A DNA stretch of 39,892 bases from an uncultured Pseudomonadota bacterium. Lineage in GTDB: Bacteria; Pseudomonadota; Gammaproteobacteria; Methylococcales; Methylomonadaceae. Where the stretch lies: assembly GCA_903834465.1 (NCBI GenBank), contig CAILJB010000126.1, positions 1 to 39,892 of the forward strand, given 5' to 3'. A program made the translations under genes and the position numbers. Shown one piece after another: positions 9,545 through 27,632 of this stretch; position 1 is the stretch's first letter, and each line of letters begins with the position of its first letter. The notes beneath the pieces are model-generated. The model saw nothing but the letters and a program-made list of their open reading frames with translations. It made no database searches and had not been told where the DNA came from.

Positions 9545-9843
9545 GTGGTGTAGTAAGCACGAATGCTTTTTTTCCCGTGAGTAATAGATTTGAACTGTTT
9601 AAGCAGTTCAGTTTTTTTCAACTGAACTGCGTCAATAAACAACTCATCCATTGCCTTGATAGATTCTAAAATACCCTGAACAGTTTGTTGATCTTCAACT
9701 GATAAAGGCGAACTTAGTAATATTTCCAAATATTCTTGACGTTGTCTCAAAATACTAGAAAGTTGTTCCCAATCGTTCAGTTCAATGGCTCGTGTTATTC
9801 TTAACGAAAAGTCATTCAACTCTTGTAATAGCCGTTCTCTCAT
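9541..9843 (-). CDS. fliT: FliT-like flagellar chaperone
   Basis: 100-residue, predominantly helical protein located 1 base after fliS in a flaG-fliD-fliS series, the usual position of fliT. FliT binds the cap protein FliD and keeps it export-ready; in enterics it also restrains FlhDC. The sequence has heptad-like helices (for example ELNDWEQLSSILRQRQEYLE) and a basic C-terminus KSITHGKKSIRAYYTT. FliT family members diverge strongly, so the call rests on position, size and helical character. The 3' end overlaps the convergent secretion operon by 4 bases. Confidence 0.7.
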   Translation of the reverse strand: MRERLLQELNDFSLRITRAIELNDWEQLSSILRQRQEYLEILLSSPLSVEDQQTVQGILESIKAMDELFIDAVQLKKTELLKQFKSITHGKKSIRAYYTT

Positions 9844-14914: not shown

Positions 14915-14939
14915 TACAAAAAAATGCGTCAGTGCATTT
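14915..14939 (-). terminator. terminator of flagellin 2
   Basis: On the minus strand AAATGC / GCATTT with a 6-base loop is followed by a run of T bases. The stem begins inside the flagellin 2 stop codon. The hairpin is short but the T-run is good. Confidence 0.6.
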
Positions 14940-16533
14940 ATCTCAACAGCGTCATGACAGATTGTCCCGATTGATTTGCTTGCGCGAGCATTGCTGTTGA
15001 AGATTGTTGCAGAATTTGAGCGCGACTTAAATTAGCGGTTTCAGCAGCAAAGTCCGTATCCATAATGCGTGATTTCGCAGCAGATTGGTTTTCAACGCCG
15101 TTTTGCAAATTCGAAATAGTAGTTGTAAGACGATTTTGCGTCGAACCTAAACTTGAACGTTCCGTATCAATAGACGCAATTGCATTATCAATAGCATTCA
15201 CCGCTGACAAAGCATAATCTGTGGCAACAGCATCGGATTCAGAAGATGCTGCCTGAACTAACGTGTTATTGTTGATAAATGATAATTTGGCGACTTCATT
15301 TGCTGATTGTGTTGCGTTGGGATTATTGACATATACCGCGCCGGCTACGGCTTTCGCAATGTCTAACGCTGCCATGGCTTTTTGTGCCACTCTGTCTGCT
15401 TTAAACGAACCTTTTTCTGCAATTGAGACGGCTGAATTTAAAATACTCGTCGTGCCTGTCACACTTGAATCGGGAACAGCCAAACTATCGCCGGTAATCG
15501 AATTCATCGCATTTTCGTAAACATTTTGCCCCATCGATTGCACATCAGTCGCCGCCGCGGTAGCAAGTTGTGTTGCTGTTGTGAGTAATGCAGACGCTTG
15601 AGCCGCATCTGTTGAAGTCGAACTTTGGATTGTTCCGTCTGTGGTGGAAATTGCACCCGCTGCCGCCACATTTGTGCTATTTGCTGTTGTGACTGACGCT
15701 ACAAATGCGTCTGTTACTAGGCTATTGGCTTTATTCGCATTAGTCGTTGCCAAAATATTCGTGGACGATGCTGAAATTGCATCTGCCGCCGCTTTGTTTG
15801 CAGCAGATGCCGCTTTTGCTAAAGCAAGATCAGCCGGTGAAGCGGCGGCTAATTTAGCCGCTACAACAGCCGCATTAGCGAGTTTTGCAGCATCATTTGC
15901 CGCTTTAAGTTGTGGATCAGCGTTAATTGTTATTGACGTATCTGCCACTGTCGCGGCGAAAAATGTCGCGTCCACAGATTCGTTTTTAGGATTCAATGAC
16001 GCATTTGCCACAGGTTTCAACAAAGAAGTCATGTCAGGAATAGCAACAGAAATTTGACTGGTTGAGTCGGTATTTGCACCAACTTGAATTCCCAAACCAC
16101 CGACCAAATCACCATTTAGAATTTTTTTACCGTTAAATTCACTGTTTTGAATAACACGCTGCAATTCGTCATTTAATGCTTTAAATTCAGTTTGCATTTT
16201 TTCACGATCTGTCACAGAAACACCAGCCGTGCTTGATGATTGCACCGCTAAATCACGCATCCGTTGCAATGTGTCGGTAAGTGAACTTAGCGAACCTTCC
16301 GCTGTTTGCGTTAGCGAAATACCATCGTTGGCATTTCTCATGGCGATATTCATGCCATTGATTTGCGATGACATACGATCTGCAATGGCTAAACCTGCGG
16401 CATCGTCTTTAGCATTATTGATTCGCACGCCTGAAGAAAGGCGTTGCATTGAAGTAGCCAACGACGCAGCAGAACTACTTAAATTCTTTTGCCCGTCAAT
16501 TGAAGCTAAATTTGTATTGATTACGAGTGCCAT
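14938..16533 (-). CDS. fliC: flagellin (paralogue 2)
   Basis: 531-residue flagellin. N-terminus MALVINTNLASIDGQKNL, the LSSGVRINNAKDDAAGLAI and LQRMRDLAVQSSSTAGVS blocks, and the C-terminus NLQNGVENQSAAKSRIM through AMLAQANQSGQSVMTLLR are all typical. ATG 16533 has a perfect GGAGG five bases upstream, so the four extra residues in frame before it are not used. The central region shares the Ala-rich block (for example KLANAAVVAAKLAAASP) with paralogues 1 and 3. Upstream I see only an imperfect sigma-28-like box (CGCGATAA at 16620-16627 with TAAA 13 bases away), so expression may be weaker or differently timed than paralogue 1. Confidence 0.95.
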   Translation of the reverse strand: MALVINTNLASIDGQKNLSSSAASLATSMQRLSSGVRINNAKDDAAGLAIADRMSSQINGMNIAMRNANDGISLTQTAEGSLSSLTDTLQRMRDLAVQSSSTAGVSVTDREKMQTEFKALNDELQRVIQNSEFNGKKILNGDLVGGLGIQVGANTDSTSQISVAIPDMTSLLKPVANASLNPKNESVDATFFAATVADTSITINADPQLKAANDAAKLANAAVVAAKLAAASPADLALAKAASAANKAAADAISASSTNILATTNANKANSLVTDAFVASVTTANSTNVAAAGAISTTDGTIQSSTSTDAAQASALLTTATQLATAAATDVQSMGQNVYENAMNSITGDSLAVPDSSVTGTTSILNSAVSIAEKGSFKADRVAQKAMAALDIAKAVAGAVYVNNPNATQSANEVAKLSFINNNTLVQAASSESDAVATDYALSAVNAIDNAIASIDTERSSLGSTQNRLTTTISNLQNGVENQSAAKSRIMDTDFAAETANLSRAQILQQSSTAMLAQANQSGQSVMTLLR

Positions 16534-16644
16534 GTCAGCCTCCAAAATGAATTAAATTAAATAAATACGCTGTATTTTTATGGGATAAATTACAAACACA
16601 CTCATCCCCAGCGGATTATTTATCGCGTTACATGGCATTTTTTA

Positions 16645-16682
16645 AAATAAAAAAAGGACGGGGCTATAAAATCCGTCCTTTT
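16645..16682 (-). terminator. terminator of flagellin 3
   Basis: A 10-base-pair perfect stem AAAAGGACGG (16652-16661) / CCGTCCTTTT (16673-16682) with an 11-base loop, followed on the minus strand by a long T-run. It lies about 95 bases after the flagellin 3 stop and separates it from flagellin 2. Confidence 0.88.
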
Positions 16683-16777
16683 CCCTTGGAGTTTTTAGAT
16701 TTTCAATATGAAGGTTGAGTGGCTTCTCAGCCCACATATCACCTCATATTTAAATCAATGGCAATGACTTGTAGAGT

Positions 16778-18367
16778 TTATCTCAACAATGTCATAACTG
16801 TTTGACCGGATTGATTTGCTTGCGCGAGCATCGCTGTTCCGGCTTGTTGTAAAATTTGCGACCGACTTAAATTTGCTGTTTCTTGAGCAAAATCTGCATC
16901 CATAATGCGTGATTTCGCGGCAGATTGATTTTCAATACCGTTTTGCAAATTAGAAATGGTGGTTGTAAAACGGTTTTGTGTTGAACCTAAATTAGAACGT
17001 TCGGTATCAATACTTGCAATCGCATTATCAATTGCGTTAATCGATGACAAAGCATAATCAGTACCAACATGATCAACAGCCATTGATGAATCCGCGACCA
17101 ATTTACTGTTGTTAATGAATGAAAGTTTATCGGTATCATTAGCTGTTTGGGTTTTAGTTGGATCATTAACGTAAGAGGCAGCGACGATGGCTTTCGATAC
17201 TTCCAACGTTGCCAATGCTTTTTGAGCATTTCTATCTGCACCAAATGTTCCTGGGGCGTAGCCAGCAACAGCTGTATTTAACGCATTTGTTGACTGTCCG
17301 GTTGAATCGACGACACTTAAATTATCACCCGTCAATGTATTCATCGTGGTTGCTAAAACGTTTTGACCCGCAGACGCTACATCAGCATTAGCCGCTGCCG
17401 CTAGTTGGTTTGCAGTGGTCATCAATGAGGCAGCTTGCGCGGCATCTGTCGAGGTCGCCGCTTGTAGTGTCGCGTCAGTGCTAGCAATGGCTGTTGCCGC
17501 CGCTACACTAGCACCATTTGCCGCTGTCACAGAATTTAAAAATGCGTCAGGAACAAGTAAATTTGCTTTATTCGCAACACTTGTTGCTAGAATATTTGTC
17601 GATGATGCAGAAATCGCATTTGCCGCTGCAACATTTGCAAGTGAGGCGGCTTTTGCTAATGCGACATCGTTTGGCGATGCTGCCGCTAATTTCGCTGCAA
17701 CAACAGCGGCGTTAGCCAATTTTCCGGCATCATTCGCCGCTTTTAACTGTGGATCATTTGCCGCTGCCGCTGCACTATTTGTTACTGTTGAAGCCAATGT
17801 TGCATCAACAGGTTCACCGTTTGGATATAAAGTGGTTTGGGTAACAGGTGTTAATAATGAACTCATGTTAGAAATGGCAACACTAATTTGACTATTTGTA
17901 TCCGTCGTTGCACCAACTTGAATATCTAAACCGCCGGCTAAATCGCCATTAAGAATTTTTTTGCCGTTAAATTCGCTACTTCCAACAACACGCACTAATT
18001 CTTCGTTTAAGGCTTTGAATTCTGTTTGCATTTTTGCACGATCAGAAGCAGAAACACCTGCTGTACTAGACGCTTGAACTGACAAGTCACGCATCCGTTG
18101 CAGAGTATCGGTTAATGAACCTAACGCACCCTCTGCTGTTTGAGTCAATGAAATACCATCATTTGCATTTCTTGTCGCAACAGTCATACCATTGATTTGC
18201 GAAGTCATACGATCTGCAATGGCTAATCCCGCTGCATCGTCTTTTGCCGAATTGACACGCAAACCTGAGGATAATCGTTGCATAGCGGTAGCTTGTGCTG
18301 TAGCTGAACCGCTTAAATTACGTTGTCCGTTAATTGAACCTAAGTTTGTATTGATTATGAGCGACAT
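16778..18367 (-). CDS. fliC: flagellin (paralogue 3)
   Basis: 529-residue flagellin beginning MSLIINTNLGSINGQRNL, with MQRLSSGLRVNSAKDDAAG, LQRMRDLSVQASSTAGVS and the canonical C-terminus ending SGQTVMTLLR. The Ala-rich centre aligns with paralogues 1 and 2. GGAGG lies five bases before ATG 18367. It has its own strong terminator (16645-16682), so it is an independent transcript. Upstream, a poor sigma-28-like arrangement overlaps a perfect inverted repeat (18462-18477). Multiple flagellins are common in polar flagellates, where one is often the structural majority subunit and the others proximal or minor. Confidence 0.95.
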   Translation of the reverse strand: MSLIINTNLGSINGQRNLSGSATAQATAMQRLSSGLRVNSAKDDAAGLAIADRMTSQINGMTVATRNANDGISLTQTAEGALGSLTDTLQRMRDLSVQASSTAGVSASDRAKMQTEFKALNEELVRVVGSSEFNGKKILNGDLAGGLDIQVGATTDTNSQISVAISNMSSLLTPVTQTTLYPNGEPVDATLASTVTNSAAAAANDPQLKAANDAGKLANAAVVAAKLAAASPNDVALAKAASLANVAAANAISASSTNILATSVANKANLLVPDAFLNSVTAANGASVAAATAIASTDATLQAATSTDAAQAASLMTTANQLAAAANADVASAGQNVLATTMNTLTGDNLSVVDSTGQSTNALNTAVAGYAPGTFGADRNAQKALATLEVSKAIVAASYVNDPTKTQTANDTDKLSFINNSKLVADSSMAVDHVGTDYALSSINAIDNAIASIDTERSNLGSTQNRFTTTISNLQNGIENQSAAKSRIMDADFAQETANLSRSQILQQAGTAMLAQANQSGQTVMTLLR

Positions 18368-21700: not shown

Positions 21701-21880
21701 AAAATTCCCGCTATTCAAACAGCGCGTTATGCGTTAATCAATGCACTTGAGCAAGATTTTGAACCGGAAATTAAACGTCTATTGAATGATGAGGCGGCAA
21801 TTGAACGGGTTTTGAATGACGATTTTGAGCGACAATGTGAACAATTTTTACCGTTATGGAATGCGTTGGTGAGCGAATGA
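18701..21880 (+). CDS. recC: RecBCD exonuclease V subunit gamma (RecC)
   Basis: 1059 aa, close to E. coli RecC (1122). RecC lacks catalytic activity itself; it splits the duplex and recognises Chi in the RecBCD recombination nuclease. Visible segments include the start MFVLHSSNKTENL, IQSQGMERWLSQQLAQQF (about residues 33-50), the ALWQ-type helicase-like core, CHSRMREVEVLKNQLIHAL after residue ~335, and FCSMLPMRSIPFKIIALLGM near 605-625. ATG 18701 has no clear ribosome site. recB and recD are not adjacent here. Residues about 311-328 (SPDLAPPFEGGRGG) are encoded by a palindromic repeat, unlike the surrounding protein. It overlaps the next gene by ATGA. Confidence 0.95.
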   Translation: MFVLHSSNKTENLVTQLSVVIETLPLSSPLSKEVFLIQSQGMERWLSQQLAQQFQVWANYEFLFPAKFFSTVAQRLDSRLTDAAFDRHKMIWRIESVLRELTDEDFLPLQYYLSGDNSELKRYQLAQELAQLFDQYQMMRPDLLAAWQENKLLYDTPAERWQKALWRNITAQIGFQHRGALWQKVIDKLLETDDGFYANKLPERVIVFGINTMPPLFLAFLHGLSKHCQLHLFLLNPSQDYWADIPSKRTRLKQTPDSHPLLSSLGQQGREFQALLLEQNLDIDLDLDTFEQAEGVTNLQHLQNDLLNNEVHSPDLAPPFEGGRGGCALDDSIQVHACHSRMREVEVLKNQLIHALEHDESLELRDIVVMAPDIQNYEPFISAVFDDIHHTIADRSLRLSNHALDIFIRFLHLSQSRFGWQSVLDLLMQPMVHTRFDLSETDLALIHHWVSDTQVRWGKSGEHKAELDLPNLDANTWQAMLNRLFMGYAIGNDDDFVQDILPYPHIEGSSALALGGLHDFLKLLFDASTAFKTAKSLNAWRNCLYDYAETLLSNAEGLERQQVNELLDELPDQLNHLADATVALQVIISWLESRVEERKSANGFLRGQLTFCSMLPMRSIPFKIIALLGMNDGEFPKIDRPPTFDLIAQYFRKGDRSRRNDDRYQFLEILLSTRQQLILTYLGQSLNHNEKIPPSVIISELLDVLSESYSLKDLTIFHPLHGFSRRYFDGSNPKLVNYSSRDYDTAQALSSPKSPTEQWWQGALTPTVESIIELSDVFDFFRHPQKHFLRRQLAVRLKTLDSVIEEREPFRIEKLEKYKVQHDWLQKHLQGETISVTRLKAEGLWLSGILGDLEFERQGANISEFAAKINAKNLGERIEDVVIDLHVDGYRLVGKLAHCYENGGLYYRYTSLKGKDFMSALLHHLVINQVQSQSTYLFSYDAKEPKLNELVFLPVYATSELLHYLLDIYRNGLQHPEAFFTEATFAYLKQSWKLAADNRAKIPAIQTARYALINALEQDFEPEIKRLLNDEAAIERVLNDDFERQCEQFLPLWNALVSE
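19633..19681. repeat. palindromic repeat element inside recC
   Basis: A strong palindrome with core CCCCCCTT (19652-19659) / AAGGGGGG (19662-19669) separated by TG, a second G-run at 19671-19677, and outer arms ACAT (19633-19636) / ATGT (19678-19681). Such extreme C- and G-runs occur nowhere else in this AT-rich gene. It is read through in frame, giving SPDLAPPFEGGRGG. It resembles C-rich/G-rich palindromic elements dispersed in cyanobacterial and sulfur-bacterial genomes (from memory, untested). Confidence 0.7.
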
Positions 21881-22737
21881 AAGTTTTAATTTTTGAATAC
21901 ATTACCGGTGGCGGTTGTAATTCCAAAGAATTGCCCGAAAGTTTAGCCAGTGAAGGGCGAATGATGGTGGATGCACTGTTGGCTAACTTTGCAAAATTAC
22001 CTGATATTAAAGTGGTTGTAATGGGATTTGCGTTAGAAACGGAATTTCAACAATTAGTTGAAACAGTGGATGCCGTATGGGTCATTGCACCCGAATCTAA
22101 TGGCATTTTGGAACGTTTTTGCCGCTACGTTGAACAAGCGGGCAAACATTTACTTACTTCACCCGCCAAAGCTGTTGCATTAGCGGCAAATAAATTAACG
22201 ACTTTTCAGATTTTACATGCCGCGCAAATTCAAACTGTACCGACAGCAATTTTTAATCCTGCGTTGCCTTACGATGTAACGAAAGAATGGATTATTAAAC
22301 CCATTGACGGCGTGGGCGCAGAAAATACTTATTTGCTTACGTCCGAAAAAGACTGGTCTGCCCTACCCGCGTTTAAAAATCCCTGCATTATTCAACCGCA
22401 TTTATACGGCGATAAAACCAGTTTGTCGTGTGTATTTAAAAACGGTCAGGCGCGATTGTTGTGTGTAAATTTGCAGATTTTTGAAATCAAAAATCAACGC
22501 TATGCGTTGCAAACTATCGAAGTAAATTACAAATCCGACGATGGTCGTTATCAAAAACTTGCGTCTCAAATCGCACAGGCATTTCCTGATTTATTTGGTT
22601 ATGTCGGCATTGATTTGATTGAAACTGACGATGCTTGTTTTGTTCTTGAAATCAATCCGCGTTTAACGACTTCATTTGTGGGCATTGAAAAAGCGTTAGA
22701 TTTAAACGTGGCGGAATTAGTTTTGAAATTACTTTAA
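21877..22737 (+). CDS. ATP-grasp ligase, MfnD-like (tyramine-glutamate ligase family)
   Basis: 286-residue ATP-grasp protein. The N-terminus MKVLIFEYITGGG and the LPESLASEGRMMVDALLANF segment strongly recall MfnD (tyramine:L-glutamate ligase of methanofuran synthesis) and its homologues in bacteria with methanopterin-linked C1 metabolism. ATP-grasp landmarks follow: NKLTTFQIL, EWIIKPIDGVGAENTYLL (the ATP-lid lysine strand), CIIQPHLYGDKTSLSCVF, and the metal-binding FVLEINPRLTTSF. It starts within the recC stop (ATGA), so its translation is coupled to recC. A role in methylofuran-type cofactor synthesis is inference; other peptide-ligase functions are possible. Confidence 0.8.
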   Translation: MKVLIFEYITGGGCNSKELPESLASEGRMMVDALLANFAKLPDIKVVVMGFALETEFQQLVETVDAVWVIAPESNGILERFCRYVEQAGKHLLTSPAKAVALAANKLTTFQILHAAQIQTVPTAIFNPALPYDVTKEWIIKPIDGVGAENTYLLTSEKDWSALPAFKNPCIIQPHLYGDKTSLSCVFKNGQARLLCVNLQIFEIKNQRYALQTIEVNYKSDDGRYQKLASQIAQAFPDLFGYVGIDLIETDDACFVLEINPRLTTSFVGIEKALDLNVAELVLKLL

Positions 22738-22831
22738 AAATTACGGCTTGTGCTAGCAAACCGTTCAAGAGTGATTGGTAGAATCCGTTATACTGATATT
22801 TTTATAGATTTAAAAAATTATTTAAAACCGA

Positions 22832-25800: not shown

Positions 25801-26632
25801 TGATAATCGATTAACGCCAGATTATTTTTATTATCTTTTATCGCATTATGACGGTGCAAAACAACAACTTTCTGATAATGCTTTAGGTGGAATTGTAAAA
25901 AATTTGAATATCGACAGAGTTAAAAATATAAAAATTCCCCTTCCTCCTTTAGAAATTCAACAGCAAATCGTGAGCGAATGTGAAGCGGTTGATTTGGAAG
26001 TTGAAACGGCGCAATCCAGTATTGAACAAACGCTAAGTGAAATTAGTAACAAAATTCAAGCTGTATTTAAAGAAGGGAAGGAAACAAAAATTTCCAATCT
26101 TCACACATTGTTAAAGCGTGGAAAATCGACAAAATACGGCGGATCAACCGTTCAAGTTATTAAGTCTGGACAAGCACGAGGTTATACAGAGTTTGATTTT
26201 TTTGAACGACATTTTGCAATTGATACTTTTCAATCGGACGAAAGAAATTTACAAAAAGGAGATTTACTTATCAATTCCACAGGAGTTGGCACGGCTGGTC
26301 GAGTAACACTTTTTGAATTAGATGGTCATTTTGTAGCAGATGGTCACATCACAATTTTTAGACCGAACAGCGAAATTTTATCTCGATACGCCCTTTATTG
26401 CCTCGCTCACATTGGATTTAAAAATATAGAAAAAATGGCAAAAGGTTCAACTGGGCAAATCGAATTAACACTTCAAACGATTGAGGAAATTAAATTGCCA
26501 CTTATTTCTCTTGAAAACCAACAAACGCTAGTCACCCAAATTGAAACCTTTGAAAAACAAATCGACGACGCACAAAAAGTGATTGATGGCGCGGTGAGTA
26601 GAAAGACGGCAGTTTTGAGTAAGTTTTTATAA
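22832..26632 (+). CDS. fused restriction-methylation-specificity enzyme (type IIG / single-chain type I-like)
   Basis: 1266-residue protein with three activities in one chain. N-terminal nuclease of the HsdR_N/PD-(D/E)xK type: Asp102 in GGRADILV, and Glu117 and Lys119 in IVECKTAG. Central HsdM-type N6-adenine methyltransferase: a helical domain from about 380, motif I DYACGAGHF (451-459) and catalytic NPPF (537-540). The C-terminal third, from about residue 890, has two HsdS target-recognition domains, each followed by the conserved LPPLEIQQQIV- or LISLENQQTLV-type helix, ending RKTAVLSKFL. It should cleave and methylate a bipartite target without separate subunits. No Shine-Dalgarno; a possible -10 TATACT lies at 22789-22794. 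The recognition domains use AT-richer codons than the body. Confidence 0.9.
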   Translation: MITETTFKQLLHALNFTAQSNKKFSKIFANGTNLAVDFENKKLIYPNGLKINEQQTCNFSASENFVVFECVHRLLEKGYAPESIELEPKWKLGRGASGGRADILVKNLQNNPLLIVECKTAGKEFDKAWKATEFDGDQLFSYAQQIPATQFLCLYTSDFTTELTYISHIIPHRDNEKILADDNNLKSFKDAQSVKERYAVWRDTYKLEFTRQGIFENNIATYTIGKDKYQLDDLNQIDGRDKEGKYHQFRTILRKHNVARRENAFEVLVNLFLCKIVDETEHPRDLHFYWKGIAYDSYFELVDRLQSLYKIGMERFLNQDIIYISNDEIDNAFWAFKNDKNATKQTIKKLFTQLKFYKGLDFDFIKVHNKELFEKNAKVLIEIVQMWQDSRLKTHEQNQFLGDMFEYFLDNGIKQSEGQFFTPMPICRFILMSLPLENLIKESEYPPHVIDYACGAGHFLNEYAAQIRPFVSQHKDSTPLNDFYKKIVGIEKEDRLAKVAKVSAFMYGQDEIQIIDADALANHKNIKPDSFNVLVANPPFAVEGFLETLDEKDRENYELLKTVSDVMNNRNVQCFFIERAVQLLAPHGMAAIIVPSSVLSNSDATHVGSREILLKHFDIIALVELGSGTFGKTGTHTVVLFLRRKHKQPTEAEQYLNRVNDWFDNWQEELNCEGGAYKDIHFVRNYCQHIGISFDHYQTLLNGKPSAELLSLEMFVDYRKDFDNSSDITKLKTQKFFKDFTLEQKQIELEKRFLTYLRAIEKDKLFYFALASENLQKVLIIKSPSDNKEQKAFLGYEWSAAKGNEGIKLTTDSNGNHVTPLYDLTSRNNPEKINALITQNFLGQLTDIPEVLQPFASLTNLVDMLDFSRKDFDKTISLMDKKAFVEIESRWDLMKLENLMTIVRGASPRPIDKFLTNDLSGINWIKIGDVKEGDKYITQTAEKITLEGAEKSRFVKEGDFILSNSMSSGRPYILKISGCIHDGWLLLSQFDNRLTPDYFYYLLSHYDGAKQQLSDNALGGIVKNLNIDRVKNIKIPLPPLEIQQQIVSECEAVDLEVETAQSSIEQTLSEISNKIQAVFKEGKETKISNLHTLLKRGKSTKYGGSTVQVIKSGQARGYTEFDFFERHFAIDTFQSDERNLQKGDLLINSTGVGTAGRVTLFELDGHFVADGHITIFRPNSEILSRYALYCLAHIGFKNIEKMAKGSTGQIELTLQTIEEIKLPLISLENQQTLVTQIETFEKQIDDAQKVIDGAVSRKTAVLSKFL
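26613..26631 (+). repeat. 19-bp direct repeat, copy 1 (end of the R-M gene)
   Basis: The last codons of the restriction-methylation gene (LSKFL and the start of its stop). The same 19 bases recur perfectly at 27116-27134, beyond the DUF4160-DUF2442 pair. Confidence 0.85.
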
Positions 26633-26643
26633 TGGAGGATAAA

Positions 26644-26880
26644 ATGCCAGAAATTTGTAAATTTTATGGAATCATCATCAGAATGTATTTGATTGATAAC
26701 GAACATCCGCCACAACATATTCACATAAAATATATGGAATTAACAAATCTAAATATCATCGATGGGGCGTTACCTAAAAAATGTCGGCAATTAGTACGCG
26801 AATGGGCAGAAATTCATCAAGCTGAATTGATTGAAATGTGGAATAGCCAAAATTTTCATAGTATTGAACCGTTGGAATAA
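26644..26880 (+). CDS. DUF4160 family protein
   Basis: 78 residues from ATG 26644, beginning MPEICKFYGIIIRMYLID, the characteristic DUF4160 opening, followed by HPPQHIHIKY and the C-terminal REWAEIHQAELIEMWN. An in-frame ATG at 26632 overlaps the upstream stop. A perfect GGAGG at 26634-26638, six bases before 26644, decides for the later start. DUF4160 genes are usually paired with a DUF2442 gene as here, and the pair is often suspected to be a toxin-antitoxin-like or mobile module. No biochemical function is established to my knowledge. It sits 11 bases after the R-M gene. Confidence 0.9.
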   Translation: MPEICKFYGIIIRMYLIDNEHPPQHIHIKYMELTNLNIIDGALPKKCRQLVREWAEIHQAELIEMWNSQNFHSIEPLE

Positions 26881-26882
26881 TT

Positions 26883-27104
26883 ATGAAACTTCAAAATTTC
26901 ACACAACAAGACGGTTATCGATTTGAGTTAGTTTTTAAAAATGGCGAAATTAAAAATGCTGATTTGAAAAATCTAATTGGTCATTACGTCGAATTAAATG
27001 AGTTAAAAACTGCGCGAATTGATAACGAATGGGGCTGTTTAGAATTTAAAAACGGTTGTGTCGATATTGAACCTAAAACGTTATATCGTTATGTTACATC
27101 GTAA
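26883..27104 (+). CDS. DUF2442 family protein
   Basis: 73 aa starting MKLQNFTQQDGYRFELVFKN. The F-x-N-G-E-x-K-x-x-D-L-K-x-L segment and closing WGCLEFKNGCVDIEP-x-x-LY are the DUF2442 signature. It lies 2 bases after DUF4160, so the two are translated from one mRNA. Some DUF2442 proteins carry a DNA-binding-like fold, which has prompted antitoxin or regulator proposals; that is inference. Its last codons overlap a fragment of a second HsdS-type tail in another frame. Confidence 0.9.
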   Translation: MKLQNFTQQDGYRFELVFKNGEIKNADLKNLIGHYVELNELKTARIDNEWGCLEFKNGCVDIEPKTLYRYVTS

Positions 27105-27135
27105 AAAAGCGGCGATTTTGAGTAAGTTTTTATAG
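27100..27135 (+). pseudogene. remnant HsdS-type 3' end
   Basis: Twelve codons reading RKKAAILSKFL plus stop, overlapping the end of DUF2442 in a different frame. HsdS proteins, including the R-M fusion here (RKTAVLSKFL), commonly end this way. No start or upstream coding sequence belongs to it, so it appears to be the displaced tail of an R-M gene left behind by insertion of the DUF4160-DUF2442 pair. Confidence 0.65.
27116..27134 (+). repeat. 19-bp direct repeat, copy 2 (downstream of DUF2442)
   Basis: Perfect copy of 26613-26631, in the frame that encodes LSKFL. The two copies bracket the DUF4160-DUF2442 pair with 484 bases between them. Confidence 0.85.
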
Positions 27136-27152: not shown

Positions 27153-27632
27153 TTATTTCCGCCGCGCAGCAAAAAAATCTTTTAATAATTGTGAGCAGAC
27201 ATCTTCTAACACGCCGCCTTGCCAATCAACCCGATGGTTTAAAAATGGCGCGGCGGCAAGATTTAACGCATTGCAAACTGCGCCACGTTTTTCATCAAAT
27301 GCGCCAAAAACCAACCGTTTTACTCGTGCATGACTAATCGCCCCCATACACATTACGCACGGTTCTAACGTGACATAAAGCGTGGTGTCGATTAAACGGT
27401 AATTTTCAAGCACTTTCCCCGCGCGTCGAACGGCAACCACTTCGGCGTGTGCGCTAGGGTCATGCGTTTCAATGACTACATTCCAACCTTCGGCAATCAC
27501 TTTTTCGTTTTTCACCAGCAACGCGCCGACAGGAACTTCGCCAGCGGTTTCGGCACGTTGCGCTAAGCGAATCGCATAACGCATCCAGCTTTCATCAATT
27601 TCATTTTGGTTTTCAGTTAAAATGTGAGCCAT
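27153..27632 (-). CDS. tadA: tRNA-specific adenosine deaminase TadA
   Basis: 159-residue zinc deaminase that converts A34 to inosine in tRNA-Arg(ACG). The zinc site is complete: HAE (His62, catalytic Glu64) and PCVMC (Cys92, Cys95). SWMRYAIRLAQRAETAGEVPVGALLV opens the fold, ISHARVKRLVFGAFDEKRGA follows the second motif, and LNHRVDWQGGVLEDVC is TadA-typical. It reads toward the defence island, ending 17 bases from the HsdS remnant. Start codons of tadA and hisC are 25 bases apart, so at least one promoter must overlap the other's coding region. Confidence 0.95.
   Translation of the reverse strand: MAHILTENQNEIDESWMRYAIRLAQRAETAGEVPVGALLVKNEKVIAEGWNVVIETHDPSAHAEVVAVRRAGKVLENYRLIDTTLYVTLEPCVMCMGAISHARVKRLVFGAFDEKRGAVCNALNLAAAPFLNHRVDWQGGVLEDVCSQLLKDFFAARRK

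Follow-up and report, generated by a model that had tools for sequence, protein, structure and literature searches.

A predicted toxin-antitoxin (TA) module of the DhiTA type stands immediately after the stop codon of a type IIG restriction-modification (R-M) gene, bracketed by two copies of the 3' end of that gene, and we favour, with moderate confidence, the view that the module was added there by a homology-driven insertion which left the second R-M 3' end behind it. The locus is part of the window, the whole stretch of 39,892 nucleotides that was analysed here (contig C126 of genome G000), and was compared with a set of 18 congeneric genomes, Methylococcales MAGs. Its features are collected in Table 1.

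Table 1. Features at and around the R-M gene and the TA cassette in the window.
Feature	Position	Strand	Basis or remark
ATP-grasp gene, left neighbour of insertion	21856..22737	+	Pfam ATP-grasp_3 over cut-off
94-nt segment preceding R-M gene	22738..22831	+	Not seen in the empty sites (sequence)
Type IIG R-M gene, 1266 aa	22832..26632	+	PADLOC PDLC03624, 1443 bits, residues 1-1266
Upstream tail copy (R-M 3' end)	26598..26631	+	Repeat search of the window
DUF4160 gene, putative DhiT-like toxin	26632..26880	+	Pfam PF13711, 57.8 bits, cut-off 23
GGAGG, Shine-Dalgarno-like	26634-26638	+	Five bases ahead of ATG 26644; putative function
DUF2442 gene, putative DhiA-like antitoxin	26883..27104	+	Pfam PF10387, 32.6 bits, cut-off 23.9
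Downstream tail copy	27101..27134	+	29/34 nt match, exact over the last 19 nt
tadA-like deaminase gene, right neighbour	27153..27632	-	Pfam dCMP_cyt_deam_1 and MafB19-deam over cut-off

The R-M protein combines a nuclease-like N-terminus with an N6 methylase and two specificity stretches; the Pfam models N6_Mtase and Methylase_S score over their cut-offs and HSDR_N_2 slightly under (23.4 of 25 bits). By this layout it is a single-chain type IIG enzyme in which methylase and specificity domains are fused, and its activity is predicted. The segment that precedes the gene contains TATACT, by eye a candidate -10 box.

When the 3'-terminal 34 nt of the R-M gene were used as a query, the downstream tail copy was the sole other position in the window with at least 24 of 34 matches, and the minus strand of the window held none. 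An earlier, sequence-only reading of this DNA had pointed out that 19 bases at the R-M stop (26613-26631) recur exactly at 27116-27134; this is borne out, within the longer imperfect repeat, as are the frames that it gave (RKTAVLSKFL-stop at the R-M end, RKKAAILSKFL-stop downstream). The 19-mer occurs twice in the window, counting either strand, and is absent from 2,265,035 bases of other loci (those overlapping the window left out). The same reading had called the bracketing sequences HsdS tails: R-M ends are indeed duplicated, whereas there is no separate HsdS, the ends being those of a type IIG single chain. As the DUF2442 stop codon (27102-27104) falls within the downstream copy, cassette and repeat are fused. 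Both window tails carry the variant GAGTAAG, which is missing from all the other tails listed; this favours a recent duplication or homogenisation over an old foreign tail. Within 400 kb of G011, a background not selected for such repeats, one of 639 gene-end tests (338 ORFs) found a nearby end copy, apparently that of a tandem paralogue. A chance origin of the window repeat is unlikely and was rejected on the gene-end tests, the control windows given below and the uniqueness of the 19-mer.

DUF4160 and DUF2442 are described in passages of PMC8198452 as the domain pair of dhiTA, a toxin-first TA operon whose activity was shown in Dickeya dadantii and E. coli. In the window the two genes follow each other in the DhiTA order, 2 nt apart, with both Pfam models over cut-off; an NCBIfam profile search returned no match for the DUF2442 protein. 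The ORF list puts the DUF4160 start at 26632; ATG 26644 is the likelier start because GGAGG, present and perfect as previously noted, sits just upstream. Against the curated DhiT model NF048015 the DUF4160 protein scores 66.3 bits (E 2.7e-18), below the cut-off of 100, and the window toxin is therefore named DhiTA-like, not DhiT. Relative to its counterpart in G017 the gene lacks 18 nt (six residues), a gap that is found only in the window's two rows among the 75 of a DUF4160 alignment, from which entries that contain a stop or fall short of 68 aa had been removed; the window toxin may be weakened or inactive. We regard the pair as a probable DhiTA-type TA module, with the toxin function assigned by similarity, toxicity and neutralisation being established for the Dickeya pair only, and the earlier guess that it is an addiction unit fits DhiTA, a TA system established elsewhere (PMC8198452, in part). 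DUF4160 relatives are also carried by 26 plasmid records, with a top identity of 70.2%.

Seven loci of the window's R-M family were read in the genus, and at five of them (window, G014, G011, G002 and G005) the R-M end is followed by a cassette and a tail copy; at the other two (G015 and G012) it is not. In G015 a single tail joins directly to the next gene, FAH, and thus provides the uninterrupted relative that the sequence-only reading had proposed to look for. By eye, the final tails of G014, G011 and G002 enter the same pre-FAH sequence as this single tail. Together with the five loci that have cassette and copy, G015 supports the claim that related R-M ends bracket a two-gene cassette, and the adverse case, a relative with two tails and no cassette, is found at none of the seven congeneric loci; outside the genus, a Cytophagales MAG (L098, below) has a tail copy of this kind. 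The R-M C-terminus of G012 differs. At this locus (L268, G012:C7) the R-M stop is followed, before FAH, by CGGAGAAAATGAAA, which by eye is the leader ahead of cassettes in G002 and may be the scar of a cassette loss.

The cassettes at this gene end are of several kinds. The first cassette of G002, which scores over cut-off as RelB-like and ParE_toxin, has a nearly identical counterpart in G014 and G011, where a 34-aa tail copy comes next; over 36 nt, the downstream tails of these two loci are identical to each other but not to the upstream tail of the same locus. G005 has a YafQ toxin paired with an antitoxin that no Pfam model matches over cut-off; behind the pair is a short degenerate tail that was detected by reading alone and missed by the tail screen. 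Behind the R-M gene of G002, which is broken, stands an array of five cassettes and six tail copies, with a tail copy behind each cassette: a RelB/ParE-like pair, a DUF4160/DUF2442 pair, a pair with a weakly DUF2281- or VapB-like first ORF and a broken second one, an antitoxin/YafQ pair, and a RelB/ParE-like pair again. Three different cassettes of this array have one common joint to the tail, CGGCGAGTAG. In G017 (72% complete), where the R-M gene was not detected, DUF4160/DUF2442 is kept between two tail remnants, and the window's DUF2442/tail joint recurs there (465 of 562 aligned columns identical). These loci suggest that gene ends can serve as landing strips for small cassettes.

The R-M gene itself has more than one genomic home. 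Among the 18 genomes, the upstream neighbour of FAH is argH within about 20 nt in seven (G000, G001, G003, G006, G008, G009 and G016) and at 103 nt in G004, and the R-M gene in six (G002, G005, G011, G012, G014 and G015). At this place G017 and, by eye, G010 have tail remnants but no R-M gene, G007 has a pilin-like ORF, and the contig of G013 ends. About 100 nt of the argH-FAH interval in G004 (L270, G004:C6) resemble, by eye, a second, degenerate argH end. In the window, R-M gene and cassette are inserted between the ATP-grasp and tadA genes, whose aligned ends lie 3 nt apart in four of 16 other loci (G004, G007, G009 and G010), these four being the loci where both genes were found. No copy of a neighbour-gene end was noticed around R-M and cassette at this site.

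Comparable repeats flank DUF4160 genes elsewhere. Flanking direct repeats (E<=0.01) were found at 25 of 66 DUF4160 loci, the window being counted with its 19 nt, and reached at least 30 nt at 14; at 41 loci a flanking repeat was absent. Control windows behind ORF stops in the 400 kb of G011 had repeats in 10 of 304 cases, one of at least 30 nt, and random windows in the same DUF4160 loci in 25 of 273, some of which may fall in arrays. Some sites are represented by loci from more than one genome, and the Fisher p values (1e-13 and 1e-10) therefore assume more independence than there is. The 66 loci are a subset of 94 matches, many of the omitted ones lying in long frames of other proteins; four sources near a contig edge were omitted, identical starts merged and stopless frames skipped. 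The repeats of at least 30 nt group into fewer site families, several of which are ends of other genes: the 3' end of a gene without Pfam match, here called gene X (L202, L206, L207), the 5' head of a class-III aminotransferase gene (L194), and a fused head and tail of an FkbM-domain gene (L176, L178). At L008 the repeat is 30 nt across a stop and a ribosome-binding site, and at L013 a 16-nt piece of an hsdS-like head stands on either side of the pair. The insertion pattern is not R-M-specific. At L013 (G007:C182) and L179 (G007:C81), DUF4160/DUF2442 neighbours genes that resemble type I R-M genes, and on each side of the pair lies a 15-16-nt repeat that matches an hsdS-like head.

Gene X of G010 (L223, G010:C110:20500-39500) has behind it AAA-ATPase and AriB-like genes, then a 1.4-kb X 3' piece, an Mrr/helicase gene and more genes including a PtuA-like one, a 1.6-kb X piece, DUF4160/DUF2442 and finally a 44-nt X tail. 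The gene X 3' end appears there as a hotspot, with defence-like groups and a TA pair between X pieces. The resident X and the two 3' fragments are 90.8-90.9% alike; for comparison, the resident X is 87.7-91.8% identical to ten X copies in nine other genomes and 78.5-81.0% to three others. By this divergence the pieces resemble alleles of foreign origin more than they resemble recent duplications; a very old duplication is the alternative.

Repeats derived from the FkbM gene, a family that is partly palindromic by eye, separate cassettes in G010, G007 and G002; dense rows of TA-type cassettes with the FkbM head-tail repeat are seen at L237 (G010:C34), L238 (G007:C158) and L178 (G002:C105). The order of PemK/MazF-like and nucleotidyltransferase/HepT-like cassettes is conserved between G010 and G007, and DUF4160/DUF2442 stands behind HepT in G007 and behind a ParE-like pair in G010.

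The sequence-only reading had further suggested a unit possibly linked to R-M loci; that the pair is particular to such loci does not hold. With nine R-M query proteins, an R-M gene was found on the stretch around DUF4160 pairs at four distinct sites (5 of 72 sources, one site twice); in 400 kb of G011, taken as 20 control tiles, the same queries gave no hit. The pair may be somewhat enriched near R-M genes; the great majority of pairs lie elsewhere, and a cargo specific to R-M loci is rejected on these 5 of 72 sources.

R-M relatives beyond the genus were sought in a contig scan (best 80 of 125, some from genomes already read). A tail-copy screen covered 901 ORFs, 69 of them called R-M (at least 700 nt downstream), with some loci under two ids; it scored the broken G002 R-M gene as non-R-M, which was corrected by reading. 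At L093, from an uncultured Methylococcaceae of uncertain kinship, an R-M gene is followed by an ORF without Pfam match, a PIN piece slightly under cut-off (22.4 of 23.6 bits) and a tail copy (16 nt exact in one comparison, 20 nt in another); the pair looks degraded. Behind this copy lies a stub which by eye resembles the DUF2281-like ORF of L099, where an R-M gene is followed by that ORF (under cut-off) and a PIN gene (over cut-off) up to the contig end. Two Cytophagales MAGs have R-M tail sequence downstream of type IIG genes with no TA pair between: a tail copy after about 60 nt at L098 (9853-10026), and a tail remnant about 330 nt downstream at L110 (~9630-9744), the L110 hit of the screen being weak. 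The remaining R-M ORFs of the screen gave nothing save weak hits (L131, L165). Among non-R-M ORFs, protein matches were mostly in low-complexity frames, and nucleotide matches occurred in the window's tandem paralogues, L106, L109 and L138. The tandem paralogues (window 14938-18367, minus strand) are adjacent ORFs of 535 and 529 aa, chemoreceptor-like by eye, with similar 3' ends and another copy downstream; at L106 (12112-12624, minus strand) an ORF end is copied exactly over 60 nt, about 1.9 kb downstream.

In a homology-driven insertion, incoming and resident DNA would have a gene end in common and recombine there, leaving the R-M gene intact, the cassette added and a tail fragment behind the cassette. 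The route may have been one-sided homology with an illegitimate joint, or a single crossover of a circle; either would keep the host gene whole and place a gene piece behind the cargo, and an insertion at a 5' end would be the mirror image. Recombination between tails could then lead to cassette loss, exchange or stacking with no integrase of the cassette's own, which would account for the arrays in relatives. The module would be translated from the R-M mRNA through its own Shine-Dalgarno sequence, assuming co-transcription, and addiction would favour its retention. This insertion is supported by the empty G015 locus, by the cassettes at five of seven loci with several unrelated TA types at one gene end, by the cassette between tail remnants in G017, by the repeats of at least 30 nt at 14 of 66 DUF4160 loci against one of 304 control windows, by the same anatomy at other gene ends and by the foreign-allele divergence at gene X; that the G010 X pieces diverge within the range of other species is the strongest argument for recombination at gene ends. 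The variant private to the two window tails, the DUF4160 loci without a repeat, the repeats in random windows and the lack of a neighbour gene-end copy at the window site count against it. Independent illegitimate joints would not be expected to give the single joint of three G002 cassettes, which calls for cassette exchange or for a precise process. Of the 18 genomes, 15 have ComEC over cut-off, which is compatible with DNA uptake and no proof of it. All 18 genomes contain tyrosine recombinases that match the integron family weakly, and these count against an insertion free of recombinases; the integron integrase TIGR02249 is over cut-off in none of the 18, and an integron is not supported.

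An insertion with target duplication, in which 20-100 nt of the recipient's own sequence are copied and no foreign gene end is involved, would explain direct repeats that are tens of nt long and have a sequence particular to each locus, as well as the private variant common to both window tails, and PMC3031569 and PMC3874152 contain passages on long, variable duplications of this kind in R-M systems. Yet the gene X copies measure 1.4-1.6 kb and are about 9% off the resident gene, like alleles of other species, and the downstream tails of G014 and G011 match each other and not their own upstream tails, which later divergence could explain; we hold this account to be rather unlikely. Target duplication by an IS or transposon was rejected, since the insert consists of only two small genes without a transposase and the repeats are gene ends of variable length. 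Still less probable is a site-specific integration, by a trans-acting recombinase that uses gene ends as attachment sites in the manner of islands at gene 3' ends. The single joint in three G002 cassettes, the gene that stays whole and the ubiquitous tyrosine recombinases speak for it; however, the repeats vary by site from about 20 nt to 1.6 kb, at some sites (L194, L013) a gene 5' end is copied, and no recombinase gene was noted inside the cassettes read.

Tandem R-M genes with TA cassettes between them, of which the downstream copies were deleted to the last codons, would leave a remnant tail, and tails without an R-M gene are known from G017 and, by eye, G010. Such a history is improbable, as deletions would have had to stop again and again at similar short tails (five times in G002), tandem R-M genes of this family were seen at none of the seven loci read, and the same pattern is seen at other gene ends. 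An assembly artefact has to be weighed because all 18 genomes are fragmented (40-550 contigs) and assemblers can be misled by repeats, but with the window joint recurring in G017, the RelB/ParE-tail joint common to three assemblies, and copies that differ in sequence, it is very improbable.

Beyond the favoured homology-driven insertion at the R-M end, we tentatively suggest that, in this lineage of methanotrophs, the ends of ordinary protein-coding genes might act as improvised attachment sites, with TA or defence cassettes that carry an end copy spreading by short homologous recombination. Spread among strains would be possible because nearly every strain has the gene, and successive insertions could build integron-like arrays without an integrase, retained through addiction. 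This generalisation is put forward as a possibility only, because the common G002 joint and the common window variant speak against it.

Common as they are, TA modules often have no recognisable mobile element around them, and how they move is an old question. Each insertion is marked by a scar that can be read, the gene-end copy between cassettes, and the copies suggest a route open to test: gene-end homology without transposase or integrase. If this is true, any genome collection could be screened for the scar, which would show where TA and defence cassettes land and why some arrays resemble integrons without being integrons.

Integron arrays are rows of small cassettes, often TA, with similar repeats between them. 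The arrays described here share the row, the repeats and the frequent TA cargo; in contrast to integrons, the repeats are pieces of neighbouring protein genes and the integrase model is not over cut-off. In minimal mobile elements, cargo is swapped between conserved genes via flanking homology, whereas here the insertion is additive and leaves gene-end copies. The DhiTA system of Dickeya dadantii has the same domain pair and toxin-first order as the window, but the window toxin is shorter by six residues and under the curated DhiT cut-off, and the passages on DhiTA in PMC8198452 mention no place behind an R-M gene with a tail copy. Homology-facilitated illegitimate recombination (one-sided homology; PMC3240628, in part) and transformation-made merodiploids (about 100-900 kb; PMC3784515, in part) resemble our loci in their one-sided homology, additive outcome and duplicated sequence; they differ in being laboratory events, and the link to TA cassettes is one we infer here. 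Closest is the insertion with long target duplication of R-M systems, credited to Nobusato 2000 and Furuta 2010 in passages of PMC3031569 and PMC3874152. As there, the inserts have no transposase of their own, long and variable direct repeats bracket them (window, G014, G011 and G002), and relatives have an empty site, with a single copy in G015; in contrast, the TA pair is here the cargo and the R-M gene the target, the repeats are gene ends, cassettes are stacked in arrays, and the copies at one site look like foreign alleles. At the level of titles and abstract starts, we found no description in the literature of TA arrays with gene-end copies between the cassettes. The combination of TA cargo, gene-end repeats and arrays looks like a novel variation on long target duplication.
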